This document shows, piece after piece, positions 3,900-52,099 of a DNA stretch of 64,000 nucleotides. Numbering within the stretch: the first letter of the stretch is position 1; every line of letters begins with the position of its first letter. This stretch comes from Kutzneria viridogrisea (GTDB lineage Bacteria > Actinomycetota > Actinomycetes > Mycobacteriales > Pseudonocardiaceae). Where the stretch lies: assembly GCA_014138725.1 (NCBI GenBank), contig JACJID010000001.1, forward strand, positions 1,054,001-1,118,000. The letters run 5' to 3'. Made by a program: the position numbers and the translations under genes. The notes under the pieces were generated by a model. The model worked only from the letters and a program-made list of their open reading frames with translations. It made no database searches and was not told the origin of the DNA.

Positions 3900-4283
3900 C
3901 GAACTGACTCGGCCGCAGGGGACCTACGATCAGATGATCAAGACGGTAGGGGTTTGCCGGTAATGATCAGTGTTGTTGCGTGGCAGTCTTGGGATTCCCC
4001 GTCGCCATGACACCGGAGCAAGATCGACCCCACGATCCAGGCGGGAGTGGAGCGTGGGGCAACCTCACAGCCTTGAGGCAGAACCGGAATAAACGTTCAC
4101 GAGGGCACGCTTCGCGCAGTGCAGTGTTTTTTACAGGCTGTTTGCCGGCGGAGCTGCGAATTGTCGCCGCCGGCCGAGTATACCTGTATTTGCTGCATGT
4201 TTGGTGGCGGCGCGCAGGAACCCCGTGAACCGGGGATCGCTCGAATGGAGCAACAGAGGCCACCCGCAGGGGGTGTGAGGACA

Positions 4284-9112: not shown

Positions 9113-9131
9113 GCACGGCACGGGGACCATC

Positions 9132-10094
9132 ATGGGACTAGTTTTCACAAGCAACGACCTGGATGAGATCCAGGAATTCATCTGCGCGGACTACACGCCG
9201 GTACGGCTCAAGGCCCACTCCCAAGATCAGTACCAGATGCAGATCATCCGGAATCCGTTGGGGCCGATCAGACTGGATCTGGTCGGCTGGTGTTTTGAGG
9301 TGGACTACGCCTTCAACCCGCCGGGCAGCATCGTTCTGGCCGGGGTGGAGTCCGGCACCATTTCGCATAGTGAAACCGAGGGCGTGCAGGACAGCTATGG
9401 CCCGGGTGAGGTGTTCCTGGTTGCCCAGCCCGACCGGCCGTATGCCGGCCGGATGTGCCATGCGCACTTCAGCTTCACCGTGCTGGAGCCGGCGTTGCTG
9501 TCCCAGGTGGCCGCGACCGCGCCCGGCCGCACCGAGGCCCCGGTGCGGTTGACCAGCTACCGGCCGATCTCCCCGGCCGCCGGCCAGCACCTGCTGCGCA
9601 CCATCACCTACCTGCGCGACCACGTCCTGACCAACCCGACGCTGCGGGACGCCCCGTTGATCGCCTCCACCGCACCGCAGTTGTTGGCGGCCACGGTATT
9701 GGCCACCTTCCCCAACACCGCGCTGCTCGACCCCACCATCGAGGACCGCCACGACACCCATCCGGCCACGCTGCGGCGTGCCATGGCGTTCATCGATGAC
9801 TACGCGCACTGCGAGATCAGCGTCGCCGACATCGCCGCCGCCGTGCACGTCACCATCCGCACGCTGCAGTACGCCTTCCGCCGCCACCGCGGCACCACCC
9901 CGATGGGCTACCTCCGCCAGGTCCGCCTGCACCACGCCCATCGGGAGCTGCTGGCCGCCGACCCCACCACCGGGGTCACGGTGACCGAGATCGCCGCCCG
10001 CTGGGGCTTCTTCCACCCAGGCCGCTTCGCCCACTACCACCGGCACGCCTACGGCCACCCGCCGTCTCGGACCCTGCTCCGCCACGCCCCCTGA
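9132..10094 (+). CDS. AraC-family transcriptional regulator (320 aa)
   Basis: The N-terminal about 200 residues form an AraC ligand-binding-like sensor (GPGEVFLVAQPDRPYAGR, RLTSYRPISPAAGQHL). The C-terminal 100 residues are the double HTH (ISVADIAAAVHVTIRTLQY, VTEIAARWGFFHPGRFAHYH). A strong hairpin terminator follows 17 bp after the stop. A second full-length copy lies at 44600-45562 on the minus strand; their DNA-binding halves are nearly identical and their first 120 residues differ considerably. Effector and targets cannot be inferred. Confidence 0.9.
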   Translation: MGLVFTSNDLDEIQEFICADYTPVRLKAHSQDQYQMQIIRNPLGPIRLDLVGWCFEVDYAFNPPGSIVLAGVESGTISHSETEGVQDSYGPGEVFLVAQPDRPYAGRMCHAHFSFTVLEPALLSQVAATAPGRTEAPVRLTSYRPISPAAGQHLLRTITYLRDHVLTNPTLRDAPLIASTAPQLLAATVLATFPNTALLDPTIEDRHDTHPATLRRAMAFIDDYAHCEISVADIAAAVHVTIRTLQYAFRRHRGTTPMGYLRQVRLHHAHRELLAADPTTGVTVTEIAARWGFFHPGRFAHYHRHAYGHPPSRTLLRHAP

Positions 10095-10110
10095 CCCGCG
10101 CCCTGGTGCG

Positions 10111-43272: not shown

Positions 43273-43671
43273 GTTGAAGTGAGCATCGCTCGGGCTATGG
43301 CGACGCCACTGCGGACGGCCGAGAACTGCGGTGAATCCGGGCGAGTCGCGGCATGGAATTGCGCCAGGCCGACAGCCTGTTGCCGTCCGGCTTGCGGTGT
43401 CGTTCGGTCCACGGTGACCAGCGACACTGCGACCGCGGCGATATCGAGGTCGCGGTGGTGATCGTCAATTCGCTCACCGCCGCAGCCGCGGCACGCTCAC
43501 CGCCAGCGCGGCGGCGTCATCCTCCAGACCTGTCCCGAAACTGGTCAGCAGCCTCGCCACTGCGGCGATCAGGTCGGCCGCCGTGGTGGGCGCGAGGTCG
43601 GCGGCGAAGGCGTGCAGTCCTTCTTCCTCATAGGGTGTGGGGCTCGTAAAGTCATCGGTGCAGGTGACAGC
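43273..43671. other. Region without a supported gene
   Basis: Short overlapping frames only; no motif or ribosome site. It ends at the terminal repeat of an IS fragment (GGGGTTCCAAAAGTC near 43677). Confidence 0.35.
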
Positions 43672-44035
43672 TCGTGGGGTTCCAAAAGTCAGTCACCGGC
43701 GCTGACCAGTAGTTTTACGCGGCCCGTTCGTACTCGTTGATCAGGCCTCCTGGGAGCTGCTGTCGCTTGATCCGCTGGGAGTGGAGGTTCGCCACCGGGT
43801 GGGTCGGCCGTGGTGGGCGGAGCTTGCGGGACCGGTGCGGCCGTCGACCGTTGTAGTGCTCGATGTATTCGGCGAGCACGGCGTTGAGGTGCCGCTGGCT
43901 CAGCCTCAGCATGTGGTCGGTGAGTTCGGATCTGGCGGTGAGTACGAACCGTTCGGCGTAGTAGTTCGCCTGTGGGCAGCGTGGAGGAATCCTTACCGTC
44001 TTGATGGCCACGTCAGCCAGGACGGCGTTGAATGG
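43672..44035 (-). mobile_element. 3' fragment of the integrase-core IS that is intact at 50821-52009
   Basis: Carries the IS end (GGGGTTCCAAAAGTC on the plus strand) and the transposase C-terminus on the minus strand (FNAVLADVAIKTVRIPPRCP, YYAERFVLTARSEL, YNGRRPHRSRKLRPPRPTHP, GGLINEYERAA to a stop at 43715). The last motif and stop are the same as in the intact copy. The 5' two thirds are missing, with the break at about 44035 next to an IS3-type end. Confidence 0.75.
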
Positions 44036-44524: not shown

Positions 44525-44599
44525 CGTTGAGACCGCCGGCATGAGCGGACGATTCGCACTCGGCATCGATTCGAGCGCCGGCCGGGCCCGGAGCCTGGG

Positions 44600-45562
44600 T
44601 TAGGGGGTGTGGCGGAGCAGGGTCCGCGATGGCGGGTGCCCGTAGACGCGGCGGTAGTAGGCGGCGAAACGGCTGGGGTGGAAGAAGCCCCAGCGGGCGG
44701 CGATCTGGGTAACGGTGGTCCCGGTGGTGGGGTCGGCGGCGAGCAGTTCTTGGTGGGCGTGGTGCAGGCGGACCTGGCGGAGGTAGCCCATCGGGGTGGT
44801 GCCGCGGTGGCGGCGGAAGGCGTACTGCAGCGTGCGGATGGTGACGTGGGCGGCGGCGGCGATGTCGGCGAGACTGATCTCGTGGTGGGCGTGGTCGTCG
44901 ATGAAGGCCATGGCGCGGCGCAGGGTGGCGGGGTGGGCGTCGTGGCGGTCCTCGATGGTGGGGTCGAGTAGCGCGGTGTTGGGGAAGGTGGCCAGCACCG
45001 TGGCCGCCAACAACTGCGGCGCCGTGGAGGCGATCAACGACGTGTCCCGCAGTGTCAGGTTGGCCAGGACGTGATCGCGCAGGTAGGTGATGGTGCGCGC
45101 CAGGTGCTGGCCGGCGCCCGGGGAGACCGGCCGGTAGCTGGTCAACCGCACCGGGGTGTCGGTGCGGCCGGGTGCGGTCGCGGCCACCTGGGACAGCAAC
45201 GCCGGCTCCAGCACGGTGTAGCTGAAGCGCGCATAGCAACACCGGCCTGCATAGGGTCGATCGGGCTGGGCGACCAGGAACACCTCACCCGGGCCGTGAC
45301 TGTCCTGCACGCCCTCGGTTTCCACGCGGGGAAAGGTGCCGGATTCCAGCCCGACCAGGCCGACGCTGCCCTTCGGGTTGGCGACGTAGTCCAGCTCGAA
45401 ACCGCAGTCAAACCGATCCAGTCTGATCGGCCCCAACAAGTTCTGGATGATCTGTGCCTTGTGCTGGTCTTGGGAGCGGGACTTGAACCGCATCGACTTG
45501 TAGCACACGCGAATAAATTCGTGAATCTCGTTCAGGTCGGTGCTTTCGAAAGCTATTCCCAT
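44600..45562 (-). CDS. AraC-family transcriptional regulator, paralogue of the gene at 9132
   Basis: A 320-aa protein from ATG 45562. The C-terminal double HTH (ISLADIAAAAHVTIRTLQY, VTQIAARWGFFHPSRFAAYY) and the whole region from about residue 120 onward are nearly identical to the protein at 9132-10094, while residues 1-120 differ at about one third of positions (for example FKSRSQDQHKAQIIQNLLG against LKAHSQDQYQMQIIRNPLG). The sensor half thus evolves faster than the DNA-binding half, or gene conversion has homogenised the latter. Both may bind the same sites with different inputs. Confidence 0.9.
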   Translation of the reverse strand: MGIAFESTDLNEIHEFIRVCYKSMRFKSRSQDQHKAQIIQNLLGPIRLDRFDCGFELDYVANPKGSVGLVGLESGTFPRVETEGVQDSHGPGEVFLVAQPDRPYAGRCCYARFSYTVLEPALLSQVAATAPGRTDTPVRLTSYRPVSPGAGQHLARTITYLRDHVLANLTLRDTSLIASTAPQLLAATVLATFPNTALLDPTIEDRHDAHPATLRRAMAFIDDHAHHEISLADIAAAAHVTIRTLQYAFRRHRGTTPMGYLRQVRLHHAHQELLAADPTTGTTVTQIAARWGFFHPSRFAAYYRRVYGHPPSRTLLRHTP

Positions 45563-46778
45563 GATCTCCCGCCGCCGGTTTGGCTGTCAGCTTGCGCCTG
45601 TCGGCAGGGAGATGGTGGTGTCGAGGGCACATGACGCGGTTGGGAGATCGATCCAGGTGAAGTTGCTCCGCCCGGACCATGTGGGGCACCCGGGCGCAGC
45701 AGCCGGAGTTGGCGGGTTGTGGCCATTCACCAAGGCCCTCGCGCGGCTCCACGTCGGCATGTGCGGACGTCGAACAACGTGATCGATTGACCTGCTCGGT
45801 CAGCGGCTACTTGGGCGGATTCTCGACGTTCCCCGGCTCCGCTCTCCAGAGGGACAGGTCGATCCAATCGGACTCGATCAGACCGGACCAGCAAGCCCGA
45901 TAGCGATCAAGCCGACGGATCTGCAGGCCCGGTCCTCACTGTTCGGGACGTTCAACATCTCCGCCGAACGTCAAGGGCTACCAGGTTGGATCGAGGCTAG
46001 GAATGCCGGTGTGGTGACTCAGCGGCAACAACAAACGAGACGACACCTGCTCACACCTGGTAGGTGTCTTCGAGTAGGAGTCGTCCCGTTGTTGATGTTG
46101 CCCAAGTTTTGTGTGCCCCCGGCGCGGTTCGTCGCAGAACTGTGCAGGCGGCTGGATCACAAGTTGTAACCCAGCCGTTGCGTTGACCTGCGCATTCGTG
46201 ATCGTGTCGGCAGGAACTCGAACCCTAAACCCGTTGGCTGAGACATCCCGTGCTGTCATATCGGGATTGTGTCGAACCGGCTCGCTGCTGCTGTTCTCGC
46301 ATGTCGTGTCAAATTCGCGTGTCGGTATCCATCGCATCACGGTACGTACGCTGCAGCAGAGCGACCTCGGAGCAACCACACCCGGTGTTGTGCGTTGGAG
46401 TGGCACCTGCATCGATCTGCCGTCTTACCTGGCCGCGGTACCGTCCGAGGAGCCGCCGCCGGCTCACCGACATGCGGCTGAGCTCTTAGGTGTGAACTAT
46501 GGACGGTCGTATGCGCTGACCTGCGGAAATGCGACTTCCGCAGGTCGGCGCGGGTCCGTTCAGTGTCGTTGTGTGCAGTTGGGGACCGTTCAGCACACAT
46601 GTCTGCTCCCCATTTGCTCCCCGCCGTGCTCCCCGTCCGTGTCAAGCTATTGGGGAGAGCCGCTGATCTGTGGGACTGTGGCGCTACACGCCGCCCAGCG
46701 CTGTCTCGTATGGGTCGCACATGAGTACCGACCTGGGTGGATGGAGTTTTTGGCACGCACAGGGCGGGCGTGCTGGGA
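45563..46778. other. 1.2-kb region without a supported gene
   Basis: The largest open frame (46111-46842 plus) has no ribosome site and a Cys/Arg/Ser-rich product, so I treat it as spurious. A tRNA T-arm-like stretch (GGTTCGAGTTCC on the minus strand near 46214-46225) lacks the other arms. No gene is supported. Confidence 0.4.
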
Positions 46779-47792
46779 TTACCGGAGCAGGCCCAGAGAC
46801 CTCAGTATGCGTCCGGTATCGGCCCCGTCAATAATCATGTAGAAACGGGGATGCCGGGCGTCGTGGGCGTAGGCGTCCATCATGCCAACCACGCTCGGCT
46901 TGATCTGATGACAGTGCTGCAGAACGAGTAGCTCCGCGGGCTCGGTGAACAGCCGATCGATCTGGTCGCCGTTCTTGCCCAGGGCCTTGACATCCATCGC
47001 GCGAGGGTAGCCCGGTCCCTTGAACAGCCACGCGGCCGACATCTGGCGCCCGCGGGTGAATACTCGTGACGTGTAGAGGTCGGAGCGCTCCCCACCCCAG
47101 TCCTTCGGAACGTACGACTCGCCGATCAGCCTGGCAAAGGCGCGCTTCACCGTGTCCTCCGGCACACGCAGGACCGCTTCACCCTCCGCCTCGGCGAGAG
47201 GAGAGGCGAAGTCGATCCCGCTGAACTGGCGGATATCGCTGGGGTAAACCCGCGCTCCCGGCACTGGACCTCCAGCGGCAAGGTCGTCATCGACGAACGA
47301 CCTGATTCCGATGAAGACCGGCCTGAGCTCAATTTGCTCTGCGCTGAGATTGGTGACCGTCCCGATCAGGTAGGCCCGCCTGTTCCCGGTGAGGCTGCCG
47401 GGCGCGGAGGAACTGGCGATTCTTGCCGCGTTGAATGTCCCGATGACGCGCACCGGCTCGCCCGCGTCGAGCACCGCCGTGAAGCTGGCCGGCTTGAAGC
47501 CAGGGGCGTCGAGGTCCCGGTCTCGCTGGAACGCGAACTCCAGCTCGGTGCCGACGACTTGCCCCGCGCGCAGGTTCCGCTCCAGGACGTGCCTCGCCAG
47601 CTCGCCGACTCCCAGCGAGGAGAGCACCTCGGCGAGTTCCGCGGCGAGCACGTAGGGCAGTGCCGCCTCAAGATCGCTCCGGCGGGCCGCGCGTGCCCGT
47701 GCGGACTCCGTCCGCTGCTCTCCGAGGAGGGACTGAACCTGGTCCTGGTGCAGGAAGTACGGTTCGAGCGCGATGCGCGTCATCGACAACAT
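46779..47792 (-). CDS. Protein of unknown fold, last gene of an ATPase-kinase operon (337 aa)
   Basis: ATG 47792 is chosen because AAGGG lies four bases upstream. The N-terminal part is alpha-helical (LHQDQVQSLLGEQRTESA, LAAELAEVLSSLGVGELARH). The middle has a beta-rich domain (TGNRRAYLIGTVTNLS, VFIGIRSFVDDDLAAG). The C-terminus has a well-defined motif set: AWLFKGPGYPRAMDVKALGK, NGDQIDRLFTEPAELLVLQH and FYMIIDGADTGRILRSL. Asp, Lys and a QHCH stretch there would suit a nuclease-like or phospho-acceptor role, but that is conjecture. It follows the kinase gene by 66 bp in the same direction. Confidence 0.65.
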   Translation of the reverse strand: MLSMTRIALEPYFLHQDQVQSLLGEQRTESARARAARRSDLEAALPYVLAAELAEVLSSLGVGELARHVLERNLRAGQVVGTELEFAFQRDRDLDAPGFKPASFTAVLDAGEPVRVIGTFNAARIASSSAPGSLTGNRRAYLIGTVTNLSAEQIELRPVFIGIRSFVDDDLAAGGPVPGARVYPSDIRQFSGIDFASPLAEAEGEAVLRVPEDTVKRAFARLIGESYVPKDWGGERSDLYTSRVFTRGRQMSAAWLFKGPGYPRAMDVKALGKNGDQIDRLFTEPAELLVLQHCHQIKPSVVGMMDAYAHDARHPRFYMIIDGADTGRILRSLGLLR

Positions 47793-47858
47793 GATCCCTT
47801 CAGCTGAGGCGGGCCACAATTTTCTGTGTCTGGCGGGCTTGGGACGGCGAGGGAGCGG

Positions 47859-49229
47859 TCACGGGATGTCCTTGAGCAGGCGGAGGAATTCGTCCACGTC
47901 CTGCGGCCGGTCGGTTGGCTTGTGGTGGGTTGCCTCCGCTACTACGGCCTGCCATAGTCCGCTGGCAGGCAGCAACGGGAGATTCTGCTCCGGTCGTTCC
48001 CCGGTCAGGATGGCTGCGATGAGCCGCCCGATGCTGTAGATGTCGGCGGCGGCCGTCACGTTGTGGGGGTTTCCGGACGACAGCTCCGGTGCGGCGAATC
48101 CCTCGGAGCCGAAGCCGGTGCCGGTCCGAGTTCGGCGCGGAACGCTGGTTTCCCCTCGGGGCTGTCGACCCAGCCCCCAGTCCGCTACGACCCACTTGCT
48201 GTTGAGGAGCAGGACGTTGGCGGGCTTGATGTCGCGGTGGATCCGGTCATCGGTGTGTGGGCGGCGCAGTCCTTCGCAGACCGCCCTGACGAGGTCCAGA
48301 AGGGCTCCTGTTTCCCGCTGTAGGCGTTCCGCGTGGCTGGCGGCACTGCCGTTCGCGAGCGGCATCACGAACCACCGCCCGTCCGGGTCGGAGTCCAGGA
48401 CCGGCATGACGTTCGGGTGCTCTCCGTAGAGGTGCCCGATGGAGATCTCACGGCGCATGCGGTGTACAGCGTCTTCATCGCCGTAGCGGAGCTGCTTCAG
48501 CGCAACGGGGATGCGGGTGTGTTTGTGCACGCCGCTGTAGACCGCGCCCTGACCACCTTCAGCGAGCGGCTCTGGGTCCCTGTCGTAGTCGGACTTCGTT
48601 CCGCGCTTGAGCCAGCGCACAGCGGCCCACGGCGCGGCCCCGGCTGTGTCGGTCATGGTGTCGTCGGTGAGGAAGGCGCGGGCAGCCTCGATACCGTGGT
48701 CACGGTAGGGCCCGTCCCGTTGTGCTCTGAGGATGGCTGCCAGTGGCCCGGCGGCCGGATAGTGAGCGAGTTCGGCAGCGAGACGGCGTGCCTCGTCGTC
48801 CTGAGCCGCCCGGCGGATGGCGCGCTTGCTGTTTTGCTCTTGCCGGGCCGTGTGCAGGTCAGGATGAGGGGCCCAGCCACGGGGCGGCAGGACCACGCGG
48901 GCGCCGCGGAAGTCGCATTCGAGGATGATGCAACCGTTGCGCGCTAGTTCTGCGGCTATGTCTTCGGCGCGGTCGCCGAACGTGGTCACCGCAGATTGCC
49001 ACCGACGGGGGCTGTTGGTGGCGAAGGCCCACTGACTGTCGGTCAGACCGCCCGGGCGGTGCGGTAGCGGGAAGCCTTCCGGTTCCAGAGTGACGCGCGT
49101 GATCTTCGGATTGCCGTTGCGGTCGGTGTTGTAGCTGCCGTCAGGTAAGGGGACGGCGTACGTGGTGAGGCCGGGGTAGACGCTGAGGTGGCGCATCGCG
49201 AAACCTCGCGGGCGGGGGCGGGCGGTCAT
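47859..49229 (-). CDS. Serine/threonine protein kinase with a novel N-terminal domain
   Basis: A 456-aa protein. Residues about 1-200 match no domain I know (YAVPLPDGSYNTDRNGN, FGDRAEDIAAELARNGC, VVLPPRGWAPHPD). Residues about 218-456 form a Hanks-type kinase: glycine-rich loop EGGQGAVYSG, Lys in PVALKQL (about 245), HRDIKPANVL (331-333 HRD) and DWG in place of DFG (VVADWGLGR). There is no transmembrane helix or PASTA domain, so it is soluble, unlike PknB-type kinases. ATG overlaps the upstream ATPase stop (ATGA), so the two are coupled. A kinase coupled to a coiled-coil ATPase suggests regulation of that ATPase or of the downstream protein. Confidence 0.8.
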   Translation of the reverse strand: MTARPRPRGFAMRHLSVYPGLTTYAVPLPDGSYNTDRNGNPKITRVTLEPEGFPLPHRPGGLTDSQWAFATNSPRRWQSAVTTFGDRAEDIAAELARNGCIILECDFRGARVVLPPRGWAPHPDLHTARQEQNSKRAIRRAAQDDEARRLAAELAHYPAAGPLAAILRAQRDGPYRDHGIEAARAFLTDDTMTDTAGAAPWAAVRWLKRGTKSDYDRDPEPLAEGGQGAVYSGVHKHTRIPVALKQLRYGDEDAVHRMRREISIGHLYGEHPNVMPVLDSDPDGRWFVMPLANGSAASHAERLQRETGALLDLVRAVCEGLRRPHTDDRIHRDIKPANVLLLNSKWVVADWGLGRQPRGETSVPRRTRTGTGFGSEGFAAPELSSGNPHNVTAAADIYSIGRLIAAILTGERPEQNLPLLPASGLWQAVVAEATHHKPTDRPQDVDEFLRLLKDIP

Positions 49230-50820
49230 GCCGGCTCGCAGTACTCGTTGCCGGTCAGCCAGGCACGGAGCAGTTCGACACGCGGAGTGTGCTCGTCATA
49301 GCCGACGACGACGGGCTGCTCGTTGTACGGGCTGGAGTCCGAGCTGCGGCGCAGCTTGACGTACTGGCCGCAGGCGTCGATGGCGTAGGTCTCCATGTCG
49401 TCTTGCAGTGCCCCGACGACTGTGATGCCGCTGTCCCTGCCGATCTGCCCGAGCAGGGCGACCGCCTCGCGGCGGTGTTGCTTGCCGAGGTTGCGGCCTA
49501 GCTCGTCCAAGACGAGCACCAAAGGGCGGCCGGTGCCACTCGCGGCCGCGGCGGCACAGACGAGCTTGATCGCCCGGTCATCGATTTGTGCCGTGTTGGC
49601 CCGCCGGTCGTAGGGGATGTGGCGCCGCCCCTCGGCGCGCCGCCACATCGGCGTGACTTTCCAGCTCCACGCCTCGGTGGGGTCGGCCGGCGGCGAAGGT
49701 TCTTCGTATTGGAGCGTGGCCCCGTACCCACCGTGTGCCCTGTCGAGCCGGTCGAACTCGGCCGCGACGTCGGCCAGCTTTTTCTTGATGGCGGAGGTGA
49801 GCGCCCCTCGGTAGGCGCGGCTGGCCTGAACCGCCTCCTCGTGGCCGATCCGCGCGGCGTCGAAGCTCTTGTGGCGTTCATCGCGCTGGATGGCGATCTG
49901 CCAGCGCTCGTACCGGTCGGTGCCCTCCTGTTGGCGCAGGTAAACGTGAAGCGCGTGGAGCAGCGGGGCAAAGGCGGCCTGCGCCCGTCGGTTGCTGCCG
50001 GGCCCGCGCTCGCTGGACTCCTTCAGCAAGCCGGTGATCTCCGCAGGCATACTGTCCGACGCGCAGGGAGGGAAGCACTCGGATATCGCCGTGCTGATCA
50101 GGCCCTTGGCTTCCTCCCACCAGTCGTCTGCCGTCCATGACTGCTGGTTGTCCGGCAGGGCGAGCAGATACTCGCTGGCAGAGCCAGATGTACCGTCCCA
50201 GCGGGTAATCAGTTCCGGAAGGCCGAGCTGCGCTTGCTCATCCTCGAGCTTCCCACGCTTCTCACGCCGGATCTTGTTCGTGTTGTCGAGGGCGGTCTTC
50301 TGCCGCAGCAGTGACTCGACCTGCTGCTGGCGAACGCCTGCCAGGCGGAGTACCTCGTCCCGCTCGTCTTGCGCGGCGCTGAGCGTCGGGGCGAGTTCCC
50401 TACGCGCGTTTCTGGCCCCCTGGTCCTTTTTCGTAACGTGCCAGCGTGCGCTTCCAGCCGGCCTGCCTCCGCCGCCGCCCGCGCGCCCTTTTGCCGACGC
50501 TCGGCGCTGATCACCTTGCGCTCAACGGCCTTTCTTGCTTCGGCGGCGTCCTGGTGCTCCGTGGACTTCTGGCGGACCTGCTCGCGGGCAGCCGCGATAC
50601 GGGCGGCGCGGCCGGTCGCGGGCTGGCTGAACCCGCCGATCACCACGATCCCGGCGTCGTCGTGGACCCGGTCGGGGTCGCTGCGGGCCGTGGTCCGAGC
50701 GTGCAGGGCGGCGAGGAAACCGCTCAGGTCGTACTCCGGATCGGCGCTGCCCGGGAGCCTGCCGTGGGGTGCTGGCGAGGCGAGGTTGGCAGCGATCAGG
50801 ATCGAGCCGGGTACGCCCGC
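49226..50820 (-). pseudogene. Coiled-coil ATPase, N-terminus removed by an IS and one frameshift in an A run
   Basis: Reading down from the IS end, the minus strand gives YDLSGFLAALHARTTARSDP, RIAAAREQVRQKSTEHQDAA and EARKAVERKVISAERRQKGA (long coiled coil), then frameshifts at 50432-50437 in a run of five A (one more A would restore the frame). It continues ARRELAPTLSAAQDERDEVL, RQQQVESLLRQKTALD, WTADDWWEEAKGLISTAI, and a Walker-B-like RPLVLVLDELGRNLG about 90 residues before the end. No Walker A is present; in such SMC-like proteins it lies near the N-terminus, so the missing part is probably on the lost side of the IS. Visible length is about 530 aa. Confidence 0.6.
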
Positions 50821-52009
50821 CTGTGGGGTTCCAGAAGTCGGTCCGCGCATCCGACCTGCGGCAACGGACACGTGACGGGCAGGGCATGATCGTCCGCCGT
50901 GGCGCTGCGTCTGCTCTATCTGATCTTCCTCCGGCTGGTGGGCCTGCTGGTGTTGCTCAGTCGCTCGTCGGCGTCCAAGGACGTCGAGCTCCTGGTGCTT
51001 CGCCACGAGGTGGCCGTGCTGCGCAGAGGCAACCCGAAACCGCGCCTGGACTGGGCCGACCGGGCGGTGGTCGCCGCGTTGGTCCGCCTGCTGCCCACGG
51101 GGCTGCGGCTGCACCGGTTGGTCACCCCCGCAACGATCCTGCGCTGGCACCGGCGTTTGGTAGCCGCGAAGTGGACCTACCCACACCGAGTCGGCCGTCC
51201 GCCCGTCGATGAGGCGATTACCAAGCTGATCGAACGGATGGCCACCGAGAACCACAACTGGGGTTACAAGAGGATTCAGGGCGAGCTGCTCAAGCTTGGA
51301 CACCGGGTCGCTTCCTCGACGATCCGGCGGATCCTGAAACGGGCGCGCATACCTCCCGCGCCGGACCGGCAGACCGACACAACCTGGCGGCAGTTCCTGC
51401 GCACGCAAGCCTCGACGATGCTGGCCCGCGACTTTTTCCACGTCGACTGCGCGGTCACCCTCCAGCGGATCTACGTGCTGTTCGTGTTGGAGGTCGGCAG
51501 CCGTTACGTCCACGTTCTCGGCACGACCACCCACCCGGACGGCGGGTGGACCACGCAGCAGATCCGCAACCTTGTGATGGATCTCGGTGACCGCGTCGGC
51601 GAGTTCAGGTTTCTCGTCCGCGACCGGGCTGGCCAGTTCGCGGCCTCGTTCGACGCTGTGCTGGCTGACGTGGACATCACGACGGTCACGATCCCGCCGC
51701 GTTGCCCCCGGGCGAACTGCTACGCCGAACGGTTCGTACTCACCGCCGGATCCGAGCTCACCGACCGCATGCTGATCCTGAGCCAGCGGCACCTCAACGC
51801 CGTGCTCGCCGAATACGTCCGGCACTACAACGGTCGACGGCCGCACCGGTCCCGCGAACTCCGCCCACCTCAGCCGACCTACCCCGTGGCGAACCTCAAC
51901 TCTGCGTGGATCAAGCGCCAGTGGCTCCTGGGAGGCCTGATCAACGAGTACGAACGAGCCGCGTAAACCTACTGGTCAGCACCGGTGACAGACTTTTGGA
52001 ACCCCACAG
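50821..52009 (+). mobile_element. Integrase-core insertion sequence (complete copy)
   Basis: Terminal repeats CTGTGGGGTTCCAGAAGTC at 50821 onward and, at the other end, the complement of CTGTGGGGTTCCAAAAGTC ending at 52009. It contains one long transposase and truncates the ATPase gene. A partial second end sequence (TGACAGACTTTTGGA) recurs at 52059-52073. Confidence 0.85.
50899..51966 (+). CDS. Integrase-core (rve) DDE transposase
   Basis: A 355-aa single-frame protein. It starts ALRLLYLIFLRLVGLLVLLS and has an HTH region (VLRRGNPKPRLDWADRAVVA). The rve core has FHVDCAVTLQRIYVLFV (first Asp), LVRDRAGQFAASFDAVLADV (second Asp) and NCYAERFVLTAGSELTDRML (Glu), then YNGRRPHRSRELRPPQPTYP and GGLINEYERAA. 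It is complete, so probably functional. The fragment at 43672 is a second copy. The family assignment to a named IS group is not certain. Confidence 0.85.
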   Translation: MALRLLYLIFLRLVGLLVLLSRSSASKDVELLVLRHEVAVLRRGNPKPRLDWADRAVVAALVRLLPTGLRLHRLVTPATILRWHRRLVAAKWTYPHRVGRPPVDEAITKLIERMATENHNWGYKRIQGELLKLGHRVASSTIRRILKRARIPPAPDRQTDTTWRQFLRTQASTMLARDFFHVDCAVTLQRIYVLFVLEVGSRYVHVLGTTTHPDGGWTTQQIRNLVMDLGDRVGEFRFLVRDRAGQFAASFDAVLADVDITTVTIPPRCPRANCYAERFVLTAGSELTDRMLILSQRHLNAVLAEYVRHYNGRRPHRSRELRPPQPTYPVANLNSAWIKRQWLLGGLINEYERAA

Positions 52010-52099
52010 CTACTCAACGACTATCAACCAGCCGCCTAACACCCCAGCTCACAGCCGATGACAGACTTTTGGACCAGGACAGGCGGATCATGGCCGGGA

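Follow-up and report, generated by a model that had tools for sequence, protein, structure and literature searches.

A decayed locus of Kutzneria viridogrisea is the 3' end of a six-gene actinobacterial unit with a predicted SMC-type ATPase and Ser/Thr kinase, possibly related to Wadjet

The window analyzed here is a stretch of 64,000 nucleotides from Kutzneria viridogrisea, and window coordinates are positions in that stretch. It contains three minus-strand open reading frames (ORFs), spanning 46779-50050, that encode the C-terminal part of an ATPase (gene D), a predicted Ser/Thr kinase (gene E) and a third protein (gene F), and that form the 3' end of a six-gene unit of ~8.0 kb with the order A-B-C-D-E-F. 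All three are present as overlapping or closely spaced genes, as described in an initial annotation of this DNA, and the D fragment and E overlap by 4 bases. The methionine encoded at 47783 is invariant across nine close F sequences, therefore this position was taken as the probable start of F. Between 46763 and 50820, the window shows 90.9% DNA identity over 4059 bp to a locus of Saccharothrix (L014), which places the group far beyond chance.

The damage suspected in the initial annotation was also found. Homology to relatives ends at 50820/50821, where an insertion sequence (IS, 50821-52009) begins, and the D homology switches frame near 50425-50431. The inverted ends of the IS are 78% identical, its transposase is of the DDE type (rve_3 match), and it occupies the position where A, B, C and roughly half of D would lie. 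No match to A, B or C was obtained within the window at an E-value of 1e-5, and the only D in the whole source genome is this remnant (36/36 candidates scored). Of the six genes, E and F alone persist as complete ORFs in the window, so that this copy cannot function as a system. The ratio of nonsynonymous to synonymous substitution rates in the window is 0.24-0.28 for E and 0.15-0.16 for F, and 0.31 and 0.17 in an intact pair; since these values resemble each other, the ratio does not date the decay. Inverted copies (88% identical) of one transposase 3' end flank the remnant, at 43669-44032 and 51649-52011, and the right-hand copy is part of the IS.

Table 1. Coordinates of the remnant and adjoining features in the window.
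Feature	Position	Strand	Description
3' boundary of unit	46759-46778	-	Homology to other genera stops 8-20 nt past F, depending on the partner
Gene F	46779-47783	-	~334 aa from the conserved ATG; open frame extends to 47819
Gene E	47859-49229	-	456 aa, predicted soluble Ser/Thr protein kinase; kinase domain ~220-455
E N-terminal domain	48870-49229	-	Residues 1-~120; common to the JetD-type nuclease of a related operon
Gene D, open C-terminal part	49226-50050	-	Predicted SMC-type ATPase; Walker B, without Walker A
Gene D, whole surviving remnant	49235-50820	-	Residues ~501-1029 of 1031, in two frames
Insertion sequence	50821-52009	+	36-bp terminal inverted repeats; DDE transposase ORF 50899-51966; abuts the cut-off D

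A contig scan with F as query gave 10 loci from 124 pattern stretches. Eight of them (L014-L021) show F after five genes in the fixed order A, B, C, D, E, which encode proteins of ~403, ~180, ~215, ~1031 and ~456 residues, respectively. Their hosts belong to four genera: two are Saccharothrix, four are Streptomyces, and one each is Micromonospora matsumotoense and a metagenome-assembled genome of Dactylosporangium. All six genes are open frames in seven of these loci, D being interrupted in L021, and in L020 a 4-base overlap joins A to B, B to C and D to E when the GTG at 4273 is taken as the start of B. The other two loci are a remnant with the 3' half of F (L022) and a Kibdelosporangium locus (L023, 9999-10127, on the same contig as L086) in which the unit is reduced to its final 129 bp (93% identity), a footprint of its loss. 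The three genes, annotated initially as a three-gene system, do belong together, since operons with all six genes occur in four genera; however, they are the end of a longer unit. An assembly of three unrelated genes brought together by chance beside an IS is scarcely credible and was rejected: although the copy in the window is broken and A-E are missing near distant F relatives, the same order recurs in eight loci of four genera.

Genome searches gave lower bounds, as only a few best candidates were scored per genome: two in the D searches of the class (394 and 306 genomes), five in one search for distant F, and up to eight in the searches of 249 genomes with F and of 394 genomes with the E N-terminus. 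F was found in 5 of 249 genomes of the window's family, its own included. One of the others (G214) is L014 in position and sequence, and another (G175) is the L023 remnant; G245 (L085) shows all six genes with an extra ORF between E and F, and G185 shows a weak partial F match without A-E. Loci L014 and L016 have in common one block of ~8.0 kb, from just before A to just past F (L014 3057-11061), with 90.7% identity and no other alignment longer than 300 bp, while the Streptomyces loci L018 and L020-L022 have more flank in common with one another. The unit looks like one that moves horizontally as a block between genera. The A-F form is sporadic and is decayed in the window, L021, L022 and L023; apparently intact copies occur in other actinomycetes.

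Gene D has a Walker A motif (GPKDSNGAGKSS) at residue 47 and a Walker B motif at 934. The latter is the LVLVLDELG pointed out in the initial annotation; its residues D-E-L-G, with E940 as the glutamate, do not vary among the 18 D proteins aligned, and the ATPase motifs are conserved in this set. Charged stretches poor in proline and glycine (~241-480 and ~601-720) surround a middle richer in both. Judged by its motifs and composition, this layout is the plan of a structural maintenance of chromosomes (SMC) protein, in which the two stretches would be coiled coils and the middle a hinge. Wadjet (JetABCD or MksBEFG, also EptABCD), one of the closest known systems, is viewed as consisting of a motor and a nuclease. 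For comparison with its ATPase, eight ORFs of 1106-1300 aa downstream of JetA and JetB were used, assigned to JetC by position and not by a model. The alignment of D with its L142 relative (see below) matched the profile of this set on the C-terminal head with a probability of 95.8 (E 7.3e-9), against 3.3 for reversed JetC; comparisons with SbcC, MukB, Ppl and GajA/OLD gave at most 26.7, although these controls of one or two sequences are weaker. Gene D is predicted to encode an SMC-type ATPase, which may be remotely related to JetC. The PADLOC JetC models matched D weakly, in its coiled-coil part (E 0.3 or worse), the PDB profile search with D returned coiled coils only, and D as query in the viral scan gave no relative.

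Gene E encodes a predicted Ser/Thr kinase (Pfam PF00069, E 1.2e-26) whose catalytic motifs are kept: VALK at 242-245 with K245, HRD at 331-333 with D333, and DWG at 350-352. The DWG in place of DFG had been noticed in the initial annotation; it lies in VADWGLG (residues 348-354), and the kinase of L020 has DWG as well. The kinase domain is the sole part of E named in scans of Pfam, PADLOC, NCBIfam and PHROGs. Its best PADLOC matches are PD-T4-6 (E 1.2e-30), mad6 (1e-28) and Stk2 (2.7e-22), and E as query in the viral scan found no relative. The N-terminal region (residues 1-205) was detected in one of 394 genomes of the class, the window's own, with at most eight candidates scored per listed genome.

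A second, diverged operon in Streptomyces ISL-12, the genome of L020, relates this N-terminal region to JetD. The operon (L142) contains a 470-aa protein, P0011, directly upstream of a homolog of A (28% identity), a fused BC gene and a homolog of D (27-29%); a 120-aa ORF lies after this D (L142:7217-7579). P0011 ends in a JetD TOPRIM domain (JetD_C, E 2.7e-17; PADLOC JetD1, 3.1e-14; MksG structure 8b7f, E 0.0022), and its residues 28-141 are homologous to residues 12-120 of E. By blastp against P0011 alone, the kinases of L015 and L017 gave E-values of about 1e-10 and the window E 1.4e-6, and hhalign of the E N-terminus with P0011 gave a probability of 95.3% (E 2.3e-8). This pair scored 61.6, whereas 200 shuffles reached no more than 25.2 and seven ORFs regarded as ordinary JetD no more than 17.2; blastp matched six of those seven to the TOPRIM part of P0011. 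P0011 matched the A-F loci in the N-terminal part of E only. One predicted N-terminal domain, which ordinary JetD does not have, is thus joined to a TOPRIM nuclease in L142 and to a kinase in A-F units. Because the same domain stands on a JetD nuclease and on the kinase, E looks like a JetD-position subunit in which the nuclease was swapped for a kinase. A search with P0011 of 28 genomes that have D found a full-length match in ISL-12 only; two further matches were weak and restricted to TOPRIM, one in G307 (~5 kb from its JetA) and one in G361. No second operon of the L142 type stood out by D among 306 genomes of the class, or by P0011 in plasmids, and the P0012 query gave Nonomuraea A-D alone in plasmids and nothing in phages.

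Comparison of D sequences separates the A-F units into two types that are about 46% identical (L020 versus L015 and L017). Type 1 contains the window, L014, L016 and L018-L021, and type 2 contains L015, L017 and L085. Residues 1-118 of E are 40-52% identical between types (five pairs) and 81-95% within them (four pairs), residues 119-205 are mixed (60-82% and 59-86%), and the kinase domain (206-456) is as conserved between types (84-92%) as within them (84-90%). At the DNA level, identity between types is 65-73% in the alignable part of D and 77-91% from about codon 118 of E to the end of F. Kinase and F seem to have been swapped together, as one cassette, and the N-terminal domain to remain with its motor; this suggests the behavior expected of a docking domain.

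Genes A, B and C were more difficult to assign. The A-D proteins of L020 and the D of L017 were left unnamed by Pfam, PADLOC and NCBIfam, the best match being mad8 for D (E 5e-5). A and B gave nothing useful in PDB profile searches, and C gave weak winged-helix-like matches (E ~0.1). The AlphaFold model of A has a predicted local distance difference test (pLDDT) score of 45, and only its last ~90 residues form a winged helix modeled mostly at 70-86. Among the 50 Foldseek matches listed for this model, the one with the highest probability was the C-terminal domain of Scc1 with the Smc1 head (1w1w_E; probability 0.51, E 3.0, not significant). B and C are not similar to one another; however, they form a single ORF in L072-L077 and in L142, where the fused protein matches JetB1 weakly (E 1.4e-4). 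Adding the L142 sequences for A and C made the relation to JetA and JetB no clearer. By analogy, A may be kleisin-like and B and C KITE-like, that is, winged-helix partner subunits of the SMC protein, but this likeness is weak.

Gene F has the motif set DVKALGK, LLVLQHCHQ and IIDGADT that had already been singled out from the window sequence. Of ten aligned sequences, eight have all three motifs unchanged, and the two distant ones have similar motifs. The C-terminal pattern DWGGE..D / FKGP / GKNGDQI / QHCH, the conserved residues E244, D247, K267, N283-Q286 and Q301-H304, and the order helix-strand-strand-helix-strand in the AlphaFold model (pLDDT 43) suggest a fold of the PD-(D/E)XK type, and F may be a nuclease. 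F gave no match in Pfam, PADLOC, NCBIfam or PHROGs, nothing useful in the PDB profile search, and no significant fold match with Foldseek. Close F relatives found sit with A-E or are shortened remnants, whereas distant ones were found in plasmids of Rhodococcus and Gordonia, in a contig labelled as phage and in three genomes of the class. The first F alignment found no relative in the viral scan, and a more diverse one found a single relative (L088, viral contig, 31%). One distant relative lies directly downstream of a Ppl-type defence ATPase (L083:9578-13554; PADLOC E 1.2e-41). More than one ATPase defence system may have an F-like protein as a partner.

The neighborhoods of the unit and its relatives were inspected with eight proteins chosen by hand for PADLOC and five integrase ORFs, a selected set to which no enrichment test applies. 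PADLOC recognized six of the eight: GajA and GajB (L015), OLD (L019), DarT and DarG (L021) and Ppl (L083). Genes of Gabija, OLD and DarTG thus lie within 10 kb of the unit in three loci, and L014, L016, L017, L018 and L085 each have a phage-type integrase within 10 kb. Because defence genes are near three loci and a relative carries a JetD nuclease, a defence role for A-F is plausible, as far as sequence and context can indicate.

A-D also occur without E and F. D was found in 29 of 394 genomes of the class, the window's own included and G370 by 96 residues only. In 21 neighborhoods, from 20 of these genomes and Nonomuraea gerenzanensis, A, B, C and D were present in 21/21, and neither E nor F was present in any of them. 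In two loci of one genus (L069:11268-13049 and L070:12389-14125), an unrelated Ser/Thr kinase, 30-31% identical in the kinase domain only, lies just after D. Among ten genomes reached via the loci, that of Micromonospora (L016) has a single D, the one of the A-F unit. The lone A-D of G307 is accompanied elsewhere in the genome by JetA and JetB, therefore A-D is not simply Wadjet I. The initial annotation would have given up a system if homologs were scattered without linkage; such scatter holds for distant F relatives and for A-D without E-F.

These genomes bear on the strongest alternative, in which A-D would be an actinobacterial condensin of the MukBEF or MksBEF kind that E and F regulate or modify by phosphorylation, with no part in defence. 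It would explain why D occurs without E and F of the window type in 28 of 394 genomes of the class (one by a 96-residue match only), why D is in all 12 genomes of one genus with chromosomal neighbors common to most of ten, and why 27 genomes with D have no full-length nuclease of the P0011 type. Even so, A-F is sporadic, is present in several genera as one block, has decayed in many copies and in several loci lies near defence or integrase genes, and a relative carries a JetD nuclease; we consider the condensin explanation unlikely, but not negligible.

A probable reading, in our view, is that A-F is a Wadjet-related SMC system with a Ser/Thr kinase as effector and F as a second, possibly nucleolytic component. 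An operon that combines an SMC-type ATPase with small partners encoded separately, a D head remotely like that of JetC, and a diverged relative with a JetD_C TOPRIM nuclease directly upstream all resemble Wadjet. By contrast, A-F units have two partner genes B and C, are missed by the JetA and JetB models in A-C, run in the order A-B-C-D-E-F and have, instead of a TOPRIM nuclease, a kinase whose N-terminal domain is that of the L142 JetD, plus F. The TOPRIM nuclease was found in the L142 relative only, and its absence from the unit is why A-F is not filed as Wadjet proper. The initial annotation matched the genes to no system; libraries do name only the kinase domain, but the unit connects to Wadjet-type SMC systems. 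No paper on a kinase-bearing Wadjet was found by title or start of abstract in the literature searched, which covered subscription papers and bioRxiv only to a small extent.

Several results weigh against this reading. The PADLOC models of JetA, JetB and JetC call none of A, B, C and D in systems of the E-F type; hhalign of A with JetA gave a probability of 15 (collinear; 0.1 reversed) and of B and C with JetB 0.6 and 0.8. AlphaFold modeled A and F poorly (pLDDT 45 and 43), and no Foldseek match of either model reached E 0.001. D against single JetC sequences gave 1.2-24.7, no better than SbcC; as the controls are also smaller, the D and JetC heads could have general SMC features in common rather than a special kinship. 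The JetD link depends on the single locus L142, and the E N-terminus is unlike the N-termini of ordinary JetD. F lacks an acidic residue two positions before its conserved lysine, and distant F relatives (32-37% identity) lack A-E in the DNA fetched around them. Also, D is found without E or F in 12/12 genomes of one genus, where neighbors are mostly common to the ten genomes looked at (L064 differs downstream); no full-length P0011-type JetD was found in 27 genomes with D, and the A-D core may be a housekeeping chromosome-maintenance complex.

Other kinase-bearing defence systems provide a second alternative, in which the kinase would kill the cell as in the abortive systems Stk2 and MADS, with the SMC-like ATPase as sensor, F as an accessory and no sensing of DNA circles. 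MADS is a multi-gene defence operon with a soluble kinase (MAD6) and an ATPase (MAD8), whereas Stk2 and PD-T4-6 act as single kinases. The combination of a soluble kinase with an ATPase in the same operon, the matches of the kinase domain to PD-T4-6, mad6 and Stk2, and the weak mad8 match of the D head (PADLOC on the window fragment, E 7e-5) would accord with it; NCBIfam gave the same D fragment only matches at E 0.04 or worse. However, the match is confined to the kinase domain of E, which scores 63.8 bits in NCBIfam MADS6 against a cut-off of 460, and the N-terminus of E matches a JetD-type protein. A-C and F match no mad model, and D is SMC-like; unlike the single kinases, E has a specific N-terminal domain and five partner genes. 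We hold this alternative to be improbable, and membership in MADS itself was rejected on the MADS6 score.

Lamassu (LmuABC) also combines an SMC-like ATPase with an exchangeable effector (PMC10586767); according to this source, LmuB has ~650 aa and its Walker B generally carries an E-to-Q change. D, with ~1030 aa, retains E940, the Walker B glutamate being kept in 18/18 D sequences, and the LmuB models matched it at E 0.04 or worse. Lamassu was rejected. At another place in the window, 9129-10097 and 44597-45565 form an inverted duplicate of ~970 bp (86.6% identical) that covers an ORF resembling, by eye, an AraC-type regulator.

The proposed Wadjet-related system would work as follows. A (kleisin-like), B/C and D would form an SMC motor of the Wadjet/MukBEF type that extrudes DNA and senses invading DNA, such as the small circles sensed by Wadjet. 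E would dock on it through its N-terminal domain, in the place of the JetD nuclease, and at the trigger state the motor would activate the kinase in place of DNA cutting by JetD. The kinase would then phosphorylate F, host targets or both, and F, exchanged together with the kinase domain, would carry out or complete restriction. That an SMC loop-extruding motor drives a kinase, with the TOPRIM nuclease swapped on the same docking domain, with foreign-DNA topology sensing leading to phosphorylation and with a swappable kinase-F effector, is an evenly balanced proposal. The Wadjet-related reading is weakest where A, B and C are assigned to Wadjet, where it depends on L142 as a single locus, and in its function, which is deduced from sequence.

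If this proposal is true, the form with a kinase effector would mean that the SMC motors of defence systems act as sensors whose outputs can be exchanged, and would link DNA topology sensing to phospho-signaling. A-D alone, with JetD, and with kinase and F would offer a natural comparison for the question of how SMC complexes that fold chromosomes and SMC systems of immunity arise from one another.

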